Origin: Pseudomonas sp. IAC-BECa141
GTDB lineage: Bacteria > Pseudomonadota > Gammaproteobacteria > Pseudomonadales > Pseudomonadaceae
NCBI RefSeq assembly: GCF_020544405.1
Contig: NZ_CP065410.1
Location: 5,919,501 to 5,983,500, forward strand
DNA length: 64,000 nt
Reading direction: 5' to 3'
The notes under the pieces were generated by a model that saw nothing but the letters and a program-made list of their open reading frames with translations, was not told where the DNA came from and ran no database searches. This document shows, in pieces, positions 34,011 through 42,179 of the stretch (positions within the stretch are counted from its first letter, which is position 1; the number at the start of each line of letters is the position of its first letter). The translations under genes and the position numbers were made by a program.

Positions 34011-35906
34011 TCAGGCCGCCACCCGGCGCTTTTCCGCCACCCGGCTGCGACCGTAGAGCACGATGATCGCCGCAATCGCCACGGCCTGCGCCGTCAGCGA
34101 ATAGGCATCGGCGTGAATCCCCAGCCAGTCGAAATCGAAGAACGCCACCGGCCGGGTGCCGAAGATCCCGGCTTCCTGCAACGCCTTCACGCCGTGGCCG
34201 GCGAATACCACCGACAACGCGCAGAGCAGCGCTGCGTTGATGCTGAAGAACAGCGTCAGTGGCAGTTTTGCCGAACCGCGCAGGATCACCCATGCCAGAC
34301 CGAACAGCAGCACCAGTGCCGTCGCGCCACCGGCGAGTACCGCGTTATGCCCGGCGGGACCGGCCTGCAACCACAGGGTTTCGTAGAACAGGATCACTTC
34401 GAACAGCTCGCGGTACACCGAGAAGAACGCCAGGATCGCGAAGCCGAAACGCCCGCCGCCACCGACCAGGCTCTGTTTGATGTAATCCTGCCAGGCCGCC
34501 GCGTGGCGACGGTCGTGCATCCACACGCCAAGCCACAACACCATGACACTGGCGAACAGCGCCGTGGCGCCTTCGAGCAGTTCACGCTGGGAGCCGCTGA
34601 CATCGATGACATACGCCGCCAGCGCCCAGGTGCCAAGGCCCGCCAGCAGCGCCAGACCCCAGCCGATGTTGACGCTGCGCACCGCCGATTGCTGGCCGGT
34701 GTTGCGCAGGAACGCGAGGATCGCCGCCAGCACCAGAATCGCTTCCAGACCTTCGCGCAGCAGAATCAGCAGGCCGGAAATGTAGCTCAGCGACCAGCTC
34801 AGACCGTCGCTGCCCAGCAGACCGGCAGATTCCTTGAGTTTGGCCTTGGCCGCGTCCAGACGCTGCTCGGCCTGCGCCACCGGCAAACCGTCCTGCAGCG
34901 ATTGCCGATAGGCCATCAGGGATTTTTCGGTGTCTTTACGCACGTTGGCATCGACGTTGTCCAGCGAGCTTTCGACCAGTTCGAAGCCTTCCAGATACGC
35001 CGCCACCGACAGGTCATAGGCTTGATCGTGCTCACCGGCACGGTACGCCGCCAGGCTCTTGTCCAGCGTCGCGGCGGTGTAGTCGAGCAACTGCGCAGGG
35101 CCGCGCTTGACCTGCGGCGGCTGCGCCCGTTGCACGCGGAAGATCGCAGCGGCGTCAGCGCCCTCGGCAGCCTGCACTTCGGCCGGAGTCTGACGGGCAA
35201 GGTCGGCGATGTTGTAGGTCTTGTCGGATTTGGCCGTGGCCGGATCGGCGCTGAACTGTGCGATATAGGTCGCCAGGTCCCAGCGCTGACGATCATCCAG
35301 TTGATCGGCGAAGGCTGGCATGTCAGTGCCTTCGACGCCCTGACCGAGGGTGCTGTAGATCGCGTACAGACTCAGGTGATCCATCCGCGCGGCGTCGCGC
35401 AGATTGGCCGGCGCCGGCGTCATGCCAAGGCCCGCCGGGCCGTCACCGGCACCCGTGTCGCCGTGGCACACCGAGCAGTTTTGCGCGTAGAGCGGCGCGC
35501 CACGGATCGGATCAGGCGTGATGATCGGGGCCTGGCTGACTTCATAAGCCACCGCCAGTTTCGCCCCCAGTTGCCGGGCCTGACGGGCCACGTCCGCGCC
35601 GTCCTGTTTCGCCGTGATGGCGGCGTGCAAGGCAGTGACACCCTGTTCCAGCGCCGCCTTGTCAGGTTTGGCCGGCAGGCCGGCGATCAGCCCTTGCAGC
35701 ACTTGGGTGAATTCCAGCTGCTCGCGGTATTCACCGTCGTCGATGACCTTGCCAGCCTGCACCGTCGGCGGGTAATCGGCGCTGATGTAATCGAGCAGGT
35801 GCAGCGCTTGCGGTGCGCCTTCCACGGTGTCGGCCAGCAGATTGAAGCTGCTCAGCGCGCACAACGGGAACACCAGCCAGGCCAGAAATCGGGACGCGGC
35901 AGTCAT
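34011..35906 (-). CDS. FTR1-family iron permease fused to a cytochrome c domain
   Basis: 631 aa. Signal segment 1-25; periplasmic region containing a class I cytochrome c with CSVCH at 144-148 and probable axial Met196 (GTDMPAF); helical region 260-370; then the seven-span FTR1 permease with iron motifs REGLE 384-388, RELLE 441-445 and RELFE 499-503. Family role is high-affinity ferrous iron import with oxidation, as EfeUO or Fet3-Ftr1. The built-in haem domain may supply electron transfer instead of a separate oxidase. No Fur site is obvious in the 151-base divergent region. Confidence 0.9.
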   Translation of the reverse strand: MTAASRFLAWLVFPLCALSSFNLLADTVEGAPQALHLLDYISADYPPTVQAGKVIDDGEYREQLEFTQVLQGLIAGLPAKPDKAALEQGVTALHAAITAKQDGADVARQARQLGAKLAVAYEVSQAPIITPDPIRGAPLYAQNCSVCHGDTGAGDGPAGLGMTPAPANLRDAARMDHLSLYAIYSTLGQGVEGTDMPAFADQLDDRQRWDLATYIAQFSADPATAKSDKTYNIADLARQTPAEVQAAEGADAAAIFRVQRAQPPQVKRGPAQLLDYTAATLDKSLAAYRAGEHDQAYDLSVAAYLEGFELVESSLDNVDANVRKDTEKSLMAYRQSLQDGLPVAQAEQRLDAAKAKLKESAGLLGSDGLSWSLSYISGLLILLREGLEAILVLAAILAFLRNTGQQSAVRSVNIGWGLALLAGLGTWALAAYVIDVSGSQRELLEGATALFASVMVLWLGVWMHDRRHAAAWQDYIKQSLVGGGGRFGFAILAFFSVYRELFEVILFYETLWLQAGPAGHNAVLAGGATALVLLFGLAWVILRGSAKLPLTLFFSINAALLCALSVVFAGHGVKALQEAGIFGTRPVAFFDFDWLGIHADAYSLTAQAVAIAAIIVLYGRSRVAEKRRVAA

Positions 35907-36057: not shown

Positions 36058-37431
36058 ATGCGCCAATGCCTGCTGTTCCCGATGTTAATCGGCACGCTCC
36101 TGCTACTTAGCGGATGCGCCGCTTACCGCAATTACGACCTGGAAATGCAGCAAACCAACGACCGGCTGATGCTCGGCGACTATCAGGGCGCACTGGATGT
36201 GCTGGAGTGGCACAACCCCTGGGAAGACAAGGACCTGCTCTACTACTTCGAGAAGGGTTCGATTCTCAGCTTCGCCAACGCACGCCCGCAGAGCCAGAAA
36301 GCCTGGCGCAGCGCCGACCGGATGGTGTTCCAGCGCGAAGAAGCCGTGCCTTCCGCACCCATGAAGCTGCTCAACCGGTTTGCCTATGAAATGGGCACCA
36401 TGCTGGTCAACGACAAGCTCAGTCGCTACGAAGGCTATGACTACGAAAAAGTCATGCTGACCACACAGATGGCCCTCAACCAATTGGGTGAAAGTGATTT
36501 CGACGGCGCCCGGGCAGACATCAAGAAGACCCACGAACGTGAAGCACTGATCGCCCGCCAGCGGGAGCGCCAGTATGAAGAGCTCGAGGAACAGGCCAAA
36601 GCTCAAGGCATCGTCGTGCAATACAAGGATCTGCAGGGCTATCCCGTCACTACCCTGGATGCGCCGGCGGTGATTGAACTGAAAAACGGTTACCAGAGTG
36701 CTTTCAGCCATTACCTGGCCGGGTTCACCTATGAAGCGCTGGGTGAACGGGATCTGGCCGCACCGGGTTATCGCCAGGCGATCGAGTTGCGCCCAAACAC
36801 GCCCTTCCTCGAACAGGCGTTGCGCAATCTCGACAAACCGCCGGCCAAGGATGATGAAAGCGATGTTCTGATCGTCGTCCAGAGCGGTCTGGCGCCGGCC
36901 CGCAGCTCGGTAACGGTGCCGATACCGGTGCGGCTCAATGAAAATCTGGTCATTACCGCGCCGATCTCGTTTCCCATTCTGGTGCCGGACACCGTCACAC
37001 CGGCGTTCGACCACATCCTGGTGGATGGCCGCAAGCGGCGGCTGACCATGATCAACAGCGTTACCGACATGGCATTCCGTACGTTGCGCGACGACATGCC
37101 GGCGATCATTTCCCGGGCGATGTTCCGCGCCAACATGGCCGCCATTTCCCAGGCGCAGGAAAACGAGCGCAATCCGGCCAAGGCCTCGCTGGTCGTCACC
37201 GAGCACGATCCCTTTGAGGAGGCCGATACCCGAACGTGGCGCACGCTCCCCGACAAGACACTGGTGGCACGCATTCGACTGAAGAAAGGCGATCATCGAT
37301 TCAATGCGCCCAATGCGCCCGGAGCGTCATCGGTCATCCTGCGCATCGACCGCGATCACCAGTTGGTCAACCTGCGAGTTCTGAGAGATGTCGCCAACGT
37401 AATCGGCAATGCCAGATTGCCGGATAAGTAA
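36058..37431 (+). CDS. COG3014 family lipoprotein A
   Basis: 457 aa. Lipoprotein signal MRQCLLFPMLIGTLLLLSGC with lipidated Cys20, followed by AAYRNYD; +2 is Ala, so outer-membrane sorting is expected. Helical TPR-like N-terminal half with the family block YEGYDYEKVMLTTQMALNQ and the repeat YQSAFSHYLAGFTYEALGER, then a beta-rich C-terminal half (VLIVVQSGLAPARSSV). ATG 36058 has GGAAGAG 11 bases upstream. Paralogue of the next gene. Function unknown; neighbours are envelope lipoproteins. Confidence 0.85.
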   Translation: MRQCLLFPMLIGTLLLLSGCAAYRNYDLEMQQTNDRLMLGDYQGALDVLEWHNPWEDKDLLYYFEKGSILSFANARPQSQKAWRSADRMVFQREEAVPSAPMKLLNRFAYEMGTMLVNDKLSRYEGYDYEKVMLTTQMALNQLGESDFDGARADIKKTHEREALIARQRERQYEELEEQAKAQGIVVQYKDLQGYPVTTLDAPAVIELKNGYQSAFSHYLAGFTYEALGERDLAAPGYRQAIELRPNTPFLEQALRNLDKPPAKDDESDVLIVVQSGLAPARSSVTVPIPVRLNENLVITAPISFPILVPDTVTPAFDHILVDGRKRRLTMINSVTDMAFRTLRDDMPAIISRAMFRANMAAISQAQENERNPAKASLVVTEHDPFEEADTRTWRTLPDKTLVARIRLKKGDHRFNAPNAPGASSVILRIDRDHQLVNLRVLRDVANVIGNARLPDK

Positions 37432-37465
37432 TGGCACCTAACTAACCGGTGCAATTAAAAAGCTA

Positions 37466-37494
37466 TTACATAGCCAGCATCGCCCGCTTATAAT
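37466..37494 (+). promoter_or_regulatory. Sigma-70-like promoter before COG3014 gene B
   Basis: TTACAT (37466-37471), 17-base spacer, TATAAT (37489-37494). Consensus-like and well spaced, about 140 bases before the gene. A 9-bp inverted repeat (37491-37499 with 37517-37525) begins inside the -10, suggesting an operator or a 5'-end hairpin. Confidence 0.65.
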
Positions 37495-37633
37495 GCCGCG
37501 CCCCCGCTATCGCGATGCGGCATTAAAGCTCCTCTTTTTATGAGGAATTGGCAGGAGGCCAATGCCACTGTCGATCGGTCCCAGCAGCCCGACCCGCACC
37601 CGAGGCTGTCGCTACTCATGGAAGAAGTACCCC

Positions 37634-39028
37634 ATGGCATTCCGCGCTCCCACTCTGATCGCGCTCAGCGCCGTCACCCTGCTGTCCGGCTGTTCGGCGT
37701 TTCGCAACTACGATTCCGAACTGGCCCAGACCAACCAGCAACTGGCTACCGGCAACGTCGACGCCGCCCTGACCCTGCTGGAAAAGAACAACACCGGCCC
37801 GGACAAGGACCTGCTCTATTACTTCGAAAAGGGTGAACTGCTGCGCGCCAAGGGCGATCTGTCCGGCAGCCAGAATGCCTGGACCAGCGCCGACCAGGTG
37901 GTGGGCAAGTGGGAAGACTCGGTCAAGCTCGACACCGACAAGTACCTGGCCCAGTTCGGCAGTTTCCTGGTCAACGACAAGGTGCGCCGCTACGAAGGCT
38001 ACGACTACGAAAAAGTCATGCTGACCACGCAGATGGCCCTGAACCTGCTGGCGGTCAATGATTTCGACGGCGCCCGTACCGCAATCAAGAAGACGCACGA
38101 ACGTGAAGCGGTGATCGCCGACCTGCGCGACAAGGAATACCTCAAGAGCGAAGAGGAAGCCGAAAAAGAAGGCATCAAGACCGAGTACAAGGACTTGCAG
38201 GGCTATCCGGTCGCCAGCCTCGACGCGCCGGAAGTGGTCGGCCTGAAAAACAGCTACCAGAGTGCGTTCAGCCACTACCTGGCCGGTTTCGTCTATGAAG
38301 CCCTGGGCGAGAAAGACCTGGCTGCGCCGGGCTATCGCAAGGCTGCCGAGCTGCGCCCGAACACCCCGCTGCTGGAGCAGGCGCTGGTCAACCTCGACAA
38401 GCCGGTCAAGAGCGACGACAGCGACATCCTGATCGTGGTGCAAAGCGGTCTGGCGCCGGCCCGCGATTCGATCCGCGTGCCGTTGCCGCTGCCAATCTCC
38501 AACAACGTAGTGATCACCCCGCTGTCGTTCCCGATCATCAAACCTGACACCTCCACCGCGACCTTCGCGCAGATCGGCGTCGATGGCCAGCAGGTCGACC
38601 TGACCGCACTGAACAGCACCACCGCCATGTCCCGCCGCGCGCTGCGCGATGACATGCCGGGGATCATCCTGCGCACCACCGTGCGCGCGATCACCAAAGG
38701 TGTGGCGCAAAAGAAGATCAACGAAACCAACCCGCTGGCCGGTCTGGCGGTCGGTATTTCTTCAGCTGTGCTCGAAGGTGCCGATACCCGTACGTGGCGC
38801 ACCCTGCCGGACACCACACAAGTGGTCCGTCTGCGCCTGAAAAAGGGTGAGCACCAGGTTACTCTGCCGAGCGCCGTCGGGGGCTCTCAGGTCAAGGTGA
38901 CCGTCGATCAGCGTTACCAGGTGATCACCCTGCGCGCCGTCGGCAATCAGGTGTTCGCCGCCGGCCTCGCCGCCCACGTCACCCCGAGCGCTGGCGCCAC
39001 CGCCGTGGCCAGCCTCAAACAACCTTAA
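37634..39028 (+). CDS. COG3014 family lipoprotein B
   Basis: 464 aa from ATG 37634 (MAFRAPTLIALSAVTLLSGC, lipidated Cys20, then SAFRNYD). Same architecture as lipoprotein A: YEGYDYEKVMLTTQMALNL, IKKTHEREAVIADLRDKEYL, the TPR-like YQSAFSHYLAGFVYEALGEK, and ILIVVQSGLAPARDSIRVPL. An upstream in-frame ATG at 37562 has a stronger AGGAGG site but would put 24 polar residues before the signal peptide; the shorter start is preferred. Clearly a tandem duplicate. 15 bases to the next gene. Confidence 0.85.
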   Translation: MAFRAPTLIALSAVTLLSGCSAFRNYDSELAQTNQQLATGNVDAALTLLEKNNTGPDKDLLYYFEKGELLRAKGDLSGSQNAWTSADQVVGKWEDSVKLDTDKYLAQFGSFLVNDKVRRYEGYDYEKVMLTTQMALNLLAVNDFDGARTAIKKTHEREAVIADLRDKEYLKSEEEAEKEGIKTEYKDLQGYPVASLDAPEVVGLKNSYQSAFSHYLAGFVYEALGEKDLAAPGYRKAAELRPNTPLLEQALVNLDKPVKSDDSDILIVVQSGLAPARDSIRVPLPLPISNNVVITPLSFPIIKPDTSTATFAQIGVDGQQVDLTALNSTTAMSRRALRDDMPGIILRTTVRAITKGVAQKKINETNPLAGLAVGISSAVLEGADTRTWRTLPDTTQVVRLRLKKGEHQVTLPSAVGGSQVKVTVDQRYQVITLRAVGNQVFAAGLAAHVTPSAGATAVASLKQP

Positions 39029-39043
39029 GAACGGAGTCTTTGC

Positions 39044-39418
39044 ATGCGCCTCAAACTCATCGCCGTCGCCGCCTTCGCCCTTCTGGCGAGCGGCTGCGCC
39101 ACCCCGCCACCGCCGGAGCCGGGCAGCGCCGCGAGCAAGGTCGTGGCCATGGGCCCGCAGAAACACATCGTGATCGGCGCGATGCGCGTGGCCCGCGAAA
39201 ACGGTTTCATGACCGTCAACGTGCAGTTGAGCAACACCCTCAACAGCAACAAGACGTTCTACTACCGCTTCGCCTGGCTCGGGCCGGAAGGGTTCCCGAT
39301 CGCCGAAGAAGAAGTCTGGAAGAGCCAGATGATGTACGGCGCCCAGACCAGCTTCATCCAGGGCATTGCCCCGACGCCGAAAGCCGTGGACTTCCGTCTG
39401 GAACTCAAGACACCTTAA
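39044..39418 (+). CDS. YcfL-like lipoprotein (DUF1425)
   Basis: 124 aa. Lipobox LLASGC with Cys18 and a proline-rich start ATPPPPEPG, then a small beta domain with VNVQLSNTLNSNKTFYYRFA and WLGPEGFPI. E. coli ycfL lies immediately upstream of lpoB, and the same order is kept here. Function unknown. Third gene of the set. Confidence 0.87.
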   Translation: MRLKLIAVAAFALLASGCATPPPPEPGSAASKVVAMGPQKHIVIGAMRVARENGFMTVNVQLSNTLNSNKTFYYRFAWLGPEGFPIAEEEVWKSQMMYGAQTSFIQGIAPTPKAVDFRLELKTP

Positions 39419-39454
39419 GCCCGACACCCTATTTCCGATTCAGAGACCATTCCC

Positions 39455-40042
39455 ATGTTTGCACGCTTTTCCTTCATCGCCGTCCTCGCCCTGCTGGCCT
39501 CCGGTTGCGCCAACACTTCGCCGACCCTGGGCAGCAAGAACATCAGCTACGGCGACACCAAGGCCGTTGAAACCGTGACCAACGAGTTCGGCTCCACCGA
39601 CCTGCAGATGATCGCCGAATCGATGACCCGTTCGCTGGCCCAGTCCGGCATCCTGCAGGGTCGCCCTGTGGTGCAGGTCTACGACGTGAAGAACAAGACC
39701 AGCGAATACATCGACACCCGCGAAATCACCACCAGCATCAAGACCCAGCTGATGAAGTCCGGCACCGCCCGCTTCGCCAGCGACAACACTGCGATGCAGA
39801 GCCAGGTCGACCAACTCAAGCTGCAAAATCAGAGCGGCCTGTACAAGAAGAGCACCGTGGCCAAGACTGGCAACATGATCGCCGCCAAATACCGTCTTGA
39901 AGGTTCGATCAGCTCGATCGTCAAGCGCAGCAGCGACTACAAGGACGTCTTCTACAAATTCAGCCTGCAACTGATCGACGTTGAAAGCGGTCTGGCGGAG
40001 TGGATGGACGAAAAAGAGATCCGCAAAACCACGGAGCGTTAA
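39455..40042 (+). CDS. LpoB-like outer-membrane lipoprotein (penicillin-binding protein activator family)
   Basis: 195 aa. Lipobox LLASGC (Cys18), a short linker, and an LpoB/CsgG-N-like domain: LQMIAESMTRSLAQSGILQG, GRPVVQVYDVKNKTSEYIDT, AKYRLEGSISSIVKRSSDYK, YKFSLQLIDVESGLAEWMDE. E. coli LpoB activates PBP1b. P. aeruginosa is reported to use the different protein LpoP for that, so the partner of this one is uncertain. The long disordered linker of E. coli LpoB is shorter here. Confidence 0.85.
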   Translation: MFARFSFIAVLALLASGCANTSPTLGSKNISYGDTKAVETVTNEFGSTDLQMIAESMTRSLAQSGILQGRPVVQVYDVKNKTSEYIDTREITTSIKTQLMKSGTARFASDNTAMQSQVDQLKLQNQSGLYKKSTVAKTGNMIAAKYRLEGSISSIVKRSSDYKDVFYKFSLQLIDVESGLAEWMDEKEIRKTTER

Positions 40043-40045
40043 TCG

Positions 40046-40789
40046 ATGCGCGCATGGATTGGCATGATGGCCCTGGCTTGCGCGTTCAGCGTGCAGGCGG
40101 CCCCGAAAGTCGCGGTGACGGATCTGGCGTACCAGGAACGTGTGGAGCAATACATCCACATCGTTTCGGCACAGAACAATTACCGCGAAGGTTATTACAG
40201 CGCCAGTGGGTCTTCGAGCTACAACGAGCTCGAAGCCACCACCAGCTACATCGAACAGACCGAACTGCGTAAATTCACCGGTGACATCAAGGGTGAAATC
40301 CTGCGTACCGGCATGTTCCAGCTGGTGCAGGGCACGCCGTACACCGCGTCCTCCAAGGGTGACGTCTACGACGTGATCAAGCGGATCAAGGCCGGCAACT
40401 TCAAGGGTGCCGATTACGTGCTGTTCGGCACTGTATCGGACATCGACTTCACCCAGGACGTGAACGAGCTGGCGAACACCGACAGCTACTCCGCCGTGCT
40501 GGGCCTGACGCTGGTGGCTGACTTCAGCCTGATCAACACCAAGACCTACGAAATCACCTCGGCGTTCACGGCGATGGGTGAAGCGCAGGACACCAAACTG
40601 GTGAACCACCGCGACATCAAGATCTCGCTCAACCGCCCGCGGGTGGTGCGTGACGTGTCGAAGGCGCTGGGCGAAGACGTGGCCGGGCAACTGAGCATGC
40701 AGCTCGGCGGTGGCGGTTACGAGCAGCCGCGTGAGCCGCAGCAACGTAACAATCTGCCGCGTGATACGGCGCCAGTGATTCTGCGCTGA
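40046..40789 (+). CDS. CsgG/LpoB-like periplasmic protein
   Basis: 247 aa, 3 bases behind the LpoB-like gene. Signal peptide RAWIGMMALACAFSVQA cut before APKVAVTDL; it has a Cys at 11 but no proper lipobox. CsgG/TolB-N-type pattern: APKVAVTDLAYQ at the start, FTGDIKGEILRTGMFQLVQG, FKGADYVLFGTVSDIDFTQD, LTLVADFSLINTKTYEITSA. A serine/tyrosine-rich insert (YYSASGSSSYNELEATTSY) lies near 50. The Gln/Arg/Pro tail is probably unstructured. Function unknown. Confidence 0.78.
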   Translation: MRAWIGMMALACAFSVQAAPKVAVTDLAYQERVEQYIHIVSAQNNYREGYYSASGSSSYNELEATTSYIEQTELRKFTGDIKGEILRTGMFQLVQGTPYTASSKGDVYDVIKRIKAGNFKGADYVLFGTVSDIDFTQDVNELANTDSYSAVLGLTLVADFSLINTKTYEITSAFTAMGEAQDTKLVNHRDIKISLNRPRVVRDVSKALGEDVAGQLSMQLGGGGYEQPREPQQRNNLPRDTAPVILR

Positions 40790-40805
40790 TTAACAGTCGG
40801 AAACG

Positions 40806-40836
40806 AAAAAGGCGACCTGCAAAGGTCGCCTTTTTT
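40806..40836. terminator. Bidirectional terminator after the lipoprotein operon
   Basis: 13-bp stem AAAAAGGCGACCT (40806-40818) with 40823-40835, 4-base loop, T run. Serves the plus-strand operon and the convergent LysE gene. Confidence 0.9.
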
Positions 40837-40849
40837 GTGCCTGTACGCT

Positions 40850-41482
40850 TTACGCAGCAGCTTTGCGCAACGTCGCCATGAACGCCGCGGCGCCAATGAA
40901 CAGCCCGGCAAACGTGCGGTTCATGCGTCTCTGCTGAGTCGGTGTGCGCAACAGGCGCAGCACCTTCGAAGCCAGACCGGTGTAGCCGGCCATGACGATC
41001 AGGTCGACCGCAATCATGGTCACGCCGATCACCACGTACTGGATCAACAGCGGCGCATGCGGATTGATGAACTGCGGCAGCACCGCCAGCATGAACACCA
41101 GGGCCTTGGGGTTGCTGATGTTCACCAGAAAGCCACGGAACACCAGGGCCAGCGGTTTGCCGATCGGCCGGACCGCCGCGTCGTCACTCATGTCCATCGG
41201 CAGTGCGCGCCACTGCTTGATCGCGAGATAAACCAGGTAGGCGACACCGAACCATTTGATCGCGTGGAACGCGGTGGCCGAAGCGGTGAGAATCGCGCCG
41301 ACACCGGCGCCGACGATGGCGATCTGCACAGCCAGGCCGATCTGCAGGCCCAGGGCATTCCAGTAGCCGCGCCAGAAACCGTATTGCAGGCCGCTGGACA
41401 TCGACGCAATGGCGCCGGCGCCCGGAGAAAGGCTGATCACCCAGCAGGCGGCAAAAAACGCCAGCCATGTTTGAAGCTCCAT
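40850..41482 (-). CDS. LysE family amino acid exporter
   Basis: 210 aa with about six membrane segments. Starts MELQTWLAFFAACWVISLSP, with the LysE/RhtB motif SPGAGAIASMSSGLQYGFWRG. Exports an amino acid or homoserine-like compound; substrate unknown. Start at ATG 41482. Confidence 0.9.
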   Translation of the reverse strand: MELQTWLAFFAACWVISLSPGAGAIASMSSGLQYGFWRGYWNALGLQIGLAVQIAIVGAGVGAILTASATAFHAIKWFGVAYLVYLAIKQWRALPMDMSDDAAVRPIGKPLALVFRGFLVNISNPKALVFMLAVLPQFINPHAPLLIQYVVIGVTMIAVDLIVMAGYTGLASKVLRLLRTPTQQRRMNRTFAGLFIGAAAFMATLRKAAA

Positions 41483-41597
41483 CGCACACCTCGACTTCGG
41501 ACTCGTGACAATCCTCAAAGCTAATGCGGATTTGGCTGGATGACTACCGATTTTTTGCAGGATGTTGCGGCCGCCGACCAACGTGGCCGGCGCGCGA

Positions 41598-42179
41598 TCA
41601 CTTTTCGAAACCGCTGGACGGGAACACATCCGTGCCGCGCCAGCGTCGCACCGAACGCTGGAAGAACAGGCTGTTGGGCACTTGCACCATGGCGCTGCCG
41701 GTGCCGAGTTCTTCGGCTTCGATCAAGGTGGTGTAGAGCAGATTGATCGCTACCACCCGACCTTTGACGCCGGGCTTGTCGGTGGTGTCCACCAGTTCGA
41801 CCACGTCGCCGAGACGAAACGGACCGACGGTGAAGATCAGAATTGCGCAGAGCAGGTTCGACAGCACGCTCCACATCGCGAAAAAGGCCACCGCGGCCAC
41901 CGCGACGAAGCCCGACAACGCAGTCCAGAGCACCGTGGCCGAGACTCCAAGGCGTTCCAGCACGAAGATCAGCGCACTGCCCATGATCAGCCAGCGCAGA
42001 CCGCCGCGCAGCGGCATCAGCAGCTGCGGCGGGAACGGATACTTCTCGCCCAGGCGGGTCAGGAATCGGGCGACGACACGCTGGGCGAAGTAGCCGGCCA
42101 GCAGGATCAGCAGAATCTGCACGCCGAGCCAGATCGGCTCGACCCACATGGCCGGCAATGGAAGTTTGAAGGCTTCCAT
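41598..42179 (-). CDS. Small MscS-family mechanosensitive channel
   Basis: 193 aa. Three membrane segments (about 17-35, 60-75, 80-115); the pore-lining helix VAVAAVAFFAMWSVLSNLLCAILIF matches MscS TM3, followed by the beta domain FRLGDVVELVDTTDKPGVKGRVVAI. Lacks the large C-terminal alpha/beta cage of E. coli MscS. ATG 42179 shares one base with the stop of the ABC-F gene upstream. Confidence 0.87.
   Translation of the reverse strand: MEAFKLPLPAMWVEPIWLGVQILLILLAGYFAQRVVARFLTRLGEKYPFPPQLLMPLRGGLRWLIMGSALIFVLERLGVSATVLWTALSGFVAVAAVAFFAMWSVLSNLLCAILIFTVGPFRLGDVVELVDTTDKPGVKGRVVAINLLYTTLIEAEELGTGSAMVQVPNSLFFQRSVRRWRGTDVFPSSGFEK

Follow-up and report, generated by a model that had tools for sequence, protein, structure and literature searches.

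A conserved envelope lipoprotein gene unit in Pseudomonas and its proposed relation to the cj0089-cj0090-cj0091 operon of Campylobacter jejuni

Do five consecutive genes for exported proteins in a Pseudomonas genome belong to one operon, and what might their products do in the cell envelope? We addressed this question in a window of 64,000 nucleotides (the whole stretch of DNA analysed) from the host genome, which comprises 6.22 Mb in a single contig. Five consecutive plus-strand genes, here called A1, A2, Y, B and G, span positions 36058-40789, where the first-pass annotation had placed five neighbouring genes for exported proteins. A1 (36058-37431) encodes a second COG3014-type lipoprotein of 457 aa, A2 (37634-39028) a COG3014-type TPR lipoprotein of 464 aa, Y (39044-39418) a DUF1425 (YcfL-type) lipoprotein of 124 aa, B (39455-40042) an LpoB-family lipoprotein of 195 aa with a short tether, and G (40046-40789) an exported protein of 247 aa with a sub-threshold LpoB match. 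The lipobox cysteines lie at residues 20, 20, 18 and 18 of A1, A2, Y and B, and the residues that follow them read A, S, A and A, never Asp, in agreement with the earlier description. G has a plain-looking signal peptide, and its Cys at 12 was not counted as a lipobox.

The last four genes are closely packed, with gaps of 15 bases (A2-Y), 36 bases (Y-B) and 3 bases (B-G), the same values as first reported, and 202 bases separate A1 from A2. Folding of positions 40799-40838 (plus strand) gave a single long hairpin of -25.4 kcal/mol with a T run on its 3' side, which bears out the strong terminator proposed after the last gene; a simple terminator scan did not list this hairpin. Both flanking genes lie on the minus strand; judged by sequence features, the one at 34011-35906 presumably encodes a permease of the FTR1 type that includes a cytochrome c part, and the one at 40850-41629 a LysE-type product.

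Family searches identified Y as DUF1425 (PF07233; 68.3 bits, cut-off 28.3), a family with an Ig-like fold, and B as LpoB (PF13036; 146.3 bits, Pfam cut-off 22.3). B also cleared the NCBI LpoB equivalog TIGR02722 (145.6 against a cut-off of 110.55). G reached 20 bits against the Pfam LpoB model, under the cut-off of 22.3, and was below the TIGR02722 cut-off as well. No CsgG (PF03783) match to G was found up to an E value of 1, and a genome-wide search gave none at the locus, so that the label "CsgG-like" once given to the fifth gene was not retained. Named homologues of G, among those listed, are nearly all from Pseudomonas. A1 and A2 are 56% identical in alignment, all of their TPR matches are sub-threshold, and database homologues of A2 carry the name "COG3014 family", those at 99-100% identity having Pseudomonas names. 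In the predicted structure of A2 (mean pLDDT 77, pTM 0.79) the N-terminal part is helical, and the C-terminal part forms a beta domain into which a long helix is inserted; the helical part would fit the TPR-like scaffold suggested earlier. In another Pseudomonas genome (G242:C4:1359802-1361210), three tandem matches to G residues 135-247 follow a full G gene. Two over-cut-off CsgG-family genes of the host lie outside the operon, in C1:2284000-2298000 and C1:3416000-3430000 (L080 and L081).

Separate searches of the same 149 Pseudomonas genomes detected A2 and G in 78 genomes each and B in 79. Comparison of the printed lists showed that the three genes share an identical set of 78 genomes. The 79th B (G277:C1:2920825-2921013) is a fragment of 65 residues that includes a stop, in a genome without A2 or G matches, and is perhaps a trace of operon loss. 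A2 was not detected in 71 of the 149 genomes, and 70 were without any B match. Twenty of the other 77 loci were then fetched, hand-picked to take in odd cases. The order A2-Y-B-G was kept in all 20, always beside an FTR1-type gene, and a LysE-type gene was also present in 18. A second A copy occurred in only 5 of these 20 loci and in 31 of the 78 genomes (rows counted by the author), indicating that A1 is optional.

A promoter-like element, ATTACA-18-TATAAT (37465-37494, plus strand), precedes A2. With one match against 1.1 expected, the general promoter scan by itself does no better than chance, and the element is proposed for its recurrence: a AAAAAGCCATTACAT-like stretch followed by TATAAT was present in 16 of 21 Pseudomonas loci (window included; counted by eye), both with and without A1, at a distance of 84 to 150 bases upstream of A2 that varies with where the gene is taken to begin. 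Four of the remaining loci have no TATAAT there and one has an unlike one. The recurrence of this element between A1 and A2, together with the optional nature of A1, argues that four genes make up the unit and that the duplicate, A1, has a separate upstream region. A2-Y-B-G (37634-40789) is therefore better read as a four-gene unit with a promoter-like element of its own and a strong terminator, and very probably represents one conserved functional unit. The proposal of a conserved envelope-lipoprotein operon thus stood, and that of a single five-gene operon gave way to the optional A1, the wide gap behind it and the recurring element.

We then assessed how these families travel together in a sample of 232 gammaproteobacterial genomes, in which contig breaks may hide neighbours. 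A was found in 45 genomes, a lower bound because the search used one sequence. LpoB at 100 bits or more gave 48 matches in 47 genomes, 41 of them within 5 kb of A, and 40 of the 45 A genomes had such an LpoB within 5 kb; G084, G182, G193, G200 and G206 had none at that score and distance. Among 17 DUF1425 matches, 15 were near A, and LPP20 at 25.7 bits or more gave 54 matches in 30 genomes, with 31 near A in 20 genomes. The rough chance rate of proximity to A is 0.4% per match. The co-occurrence survey called for earlier thus found the genes together far above chance. The third partner at A loci was DUF1425 in 15 genomes, LPP20 (a FlgP-type lipoprotein) in 20, both in none and neither in 10; the lack of overlap has a probability of 9e-6 under independent choice, a value that is too small because it ignores genome relatedness. 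These results do not support the view of a YcfL-LpoB core with COG3014 added, since A and B are the commonest pair and DUF1425 is an exchangeable partner. In E. coli K-12, lpoB does stand next to ycfL, as had been stated. A tree of B-type proteins placed the LPP20-linked kind separately (19 of 19 such rows plus three others, support 98/99). The other group held 13 of 14 DUF1425-linked rows, including window B, together with Campylobacter B and E. coli LpoB, at a support of 88/93, which is not full.

A further relative was reached through a solved structure, 4gio, which matches Y weakly (E 0.0025). A search with a peptide of 4gio led to three Campylobacter loci, two of them from C. jejuni. Window A, Y and B profiles matched a gene trio in all three loci at 212-225, 44-46 and 117-119 bits, and in the C. 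jejuni locus L086 DUF1425 (PF07233) and LpoB (PF13036) scored over the Pfam cut-off. By order and sizes, the trio corresponds to cj0089-cj0090-cj0091 of PMC3100323. Judged from these profile matches, the A-Y-B core is homologous gene for gene to cj0089-cj0090-cj0091, in the same order. After A-Y-B, Campylobacter sp. TTU_617 (L088:5978-8527) carries genes for a DUF6844 protein and then a 400-aa B-profile protein. In locus L053, from a gammaproteobacterium, these two places are taken by a 475-aa gene that matches no Pfam family and by a gene of the CsgG type; at the first of them L086 has only a 98-aa ORF.

No function published for all five genes together was known to the first-pass annotation; their A-Y-B core, however, corresponds to an operon partly characterised in 2011 (PMC3100323), and HP0018 is a published relative. 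According to PMC3100323, cj0089-91 are co-transcribed by RT-PCR and all predicted lipoproteins. Cj0091 is mainly located in the outer membrane, and Cj0089 was mainly in the inner-membrane fraction, which held some outer-membrane protein. The cj0091 mutant showed reduced adherence and slower early colonisation, neither of which is reported for cj0089. Cj0089 is described as the HP0018 homologue in PMC11394524, with an identity of 27.4% as printed in PMC3100323. As reported in PMC11394524, deletion of hp0018 in H. pylori causes hypervesiculation and less helical cells, a co-IP of HP0018 in one replicate gave MltD and AmiA as possible partners, and hp0018 homologues adjoin hp1457 (LpoB) homologues in many enterohepatic Helicobacter. 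The authors of that study suggest a role in peptidoglycan. Within the open-licence literature we found no paper joining the Campylobacter or Helicobacter loci with Pseudomonas, YcfL or LPP20 loci, and no experiments on the Pseudomonas A2-Y-B-G genes.

A2-Y-B-G is best read as the version, in Pseudomonas, of a conserved module of lipoproteins with the core A, Y and B. That it forms an outer-membrane-anchored lipoprotein complex for envelope upkeep is a functional inference to which we give about an even chance. Lacking Asp at +2, the lipoproteins A, Y and B would end up anchored in the inner leaflet of the outer membrane. There the helical arm of A may bring Y together with the LpoB-type proteins B and G in a complex just beneath the membrane, which would most likely keep the outer membrane intact and tied to peptidoglycan, limit blebbing and perhaps steer murein hydrolases. 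Its job would not be PBP1B activation, a task of LpoP in P. aeruginosa. We favour the envelope-upkeep role because loss of the published A relative, HP0018, causes blebbing. Counted against this reading are the 71 of 149 Pseudomonas genomes without A2 and, from PMC3100323, the recovery of Cj0089 mainly in the inner-membrane fraction and the adherence phenotype of cj0091.

Other loci with A carry parts that suggest a different, though unlikely, reading, in which B and G would assemble, like CsgG or PelC, into a ring or channel that exports or builds a surface polymer, with A as its TPR partner. CsgG proteins over the cut-off stand beside A in some loci, one of them with FlgT_C also over its cut-off (L050; 931 aa, CsgG 86.5 bits, FlgT_C 49.5 bits against a cut-off of 27), and 5 of 48 A-family loci have a gene for an OmpA-type barrel next to B. 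The window has no CsgG match, its unit contains no porin-like gene, and no gene for an export substrate, polymerase or secretin lies beside the operon, all of which weighs against a channel here. DUF6844 was present in five of the 232 gammaproteobacterial genomes, at the A locus in three, and all five DUF6844 genes adjoin a weak LpoB match, one of which is under the cut-off (compared by eye). The occurrence of CsgG, FlgT_C and DUF6844 beside A elsewhere indicates that certain relatives have components in common with the envelope rings of flagella and curli; the window version has none of the three. The A-Y-B loci L033, L034, L035, L038 and L042 carry a gene of one family beside B, on the opposite strand in L035, and the member in L033 shows matches to outer-membrane barrels of the OmpA type.

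The presence of LPP20 and FlgT_C next to A in other genomes also raised the possibility of a flagellar H-ring, which was rejected. Neither LPP20 (FlgP) nor FlgT_C was matched in the host genome by searches that matched 32 and 20 other genomes, respectively, and of the 20 genomes with FlgT_C only 3 have it close to A (1 of 9 among over-cut-off matches, by eye). P. fluorescens Pf0-1 is listed without FlgO, FlgP and FlgT candidates in PMC6375700.

Slightly less probable than the channel is that B or G is a true LpoB that reaches and activates a class A PBP, with A and Y as regulators. The score of B over the NCBI equivalog cut-off and the adjacency of ycfL and lpoB in E. coli favour it, but the tether of B has 32 residues with one Pro, against 60 residues with 16 Pro in E. 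coli LpoB. A long disordered proline-rich tether is needed for LpoB reach. The host does encode a UB2H protein, with one match to this PBP1B domain over the cut-off, yet the gene next downstream of the PBP1B gene (L112:3470-4216) encodes a 248-aa lipoprotein with TPR matches. By its sequence and position this protein is likely LpoP, whose gene adjoins ponB. P. aeruginosa LpoP has been found to bind and stimulate PBP1B (PMC7267771). In favour of a true LpoB is also the peptidoglycan role suggested by the HP0018 authors (PMC11394524). Further against it, the 71 and 70 Pseudomonas genomes named above are without A2 and without any B match. Since an LpoP-like gene adjoins PBP1B and the tether of B is short, we lowered the reading of B as a PBP1B activator and regard its "LpoB" label in that sense as doubtful. 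Finally, a module of surface-exposed adhesive lipoproteins, as proposed for Cj0091 and in line with the less adherent cj0091 mutant, is very improbable, given the spread of the module across varied gammaproteobacterial families, a phenotype in only one of the two genes tested in PMC3100323 and no sign of surface exposure for the window proteins.

Through these comparisons a published operon of Campylobacter and a vesiculation phenotype of Helicobacter become linked to a so far unstudied operon of Pseudomonas, whose function is therefore testable in harmless laboratory strains. The automatic name "penicillin-binding protein activator LpoB" also covers short-tethered proteins in bacteria where another activator appears to be used. 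More tentatively, and with the balance somewhat against it, the A-Y-B module may be old, present in at least two phyla, with E. coli LpoB a later recruit that reached PBP1B after A was lost and a proline-rich tether gained. If so, an ancestor lost A and kept Y and B adjacent, and the tether of B then let PBP1B be reached; in many bacteria the name would then be a misnomer, and the LpoB fold would originally have worked in an outer-membrane complex with exchangeable DUF1425 or LPP20 partners. A possible source of the PBP1B-LpoB regulation of E. coli is thereby suggested.

Among known systems, the flagellar H-ring FlgO-FlgP-FlgT touches the module through the LPP20 and FlgT_C families, which adjoin A in some other genomes. 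The gammaproteobacterial COG3014, LpoB and LPP20 clusters resemble the window in their adjacent A- and B-type genes, but LPP20 replaces DUF1425 and their B proteins form the separate group (98/99). E. coli ycfL-lpoB, found at 26.5 bits with the window Y profile and at 43.2 bits with the B profile, places its DUF1425 gene directly before its LpoB gene, as in window Y-B; unlike the window, it has no A or G alongside, and PBP1B is the proven partner of its LpoB. HP0018 and HP1457 are described in PMC11394524 as homologues of Cj0089 and of Cj0091/LpoB, and are tied to window A via Cj0089 only; their genes lie apart in H. pylori. The Campylobacter A is about 20% identical to window A, the three Campylobacter loci have no G profile match and no second A, unlike the window, and cj0089-91 are under CmeR regulation with different neighbour genes. 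The three genes cj0089, cj0090 and cj0091 encode 453, 122 and 207 aa, against 464, 124 and 195 aa for window A2, Y and B, all of them lipoproteins, and a stem-loop follows the third gene, cj0091 (PMC3100323).
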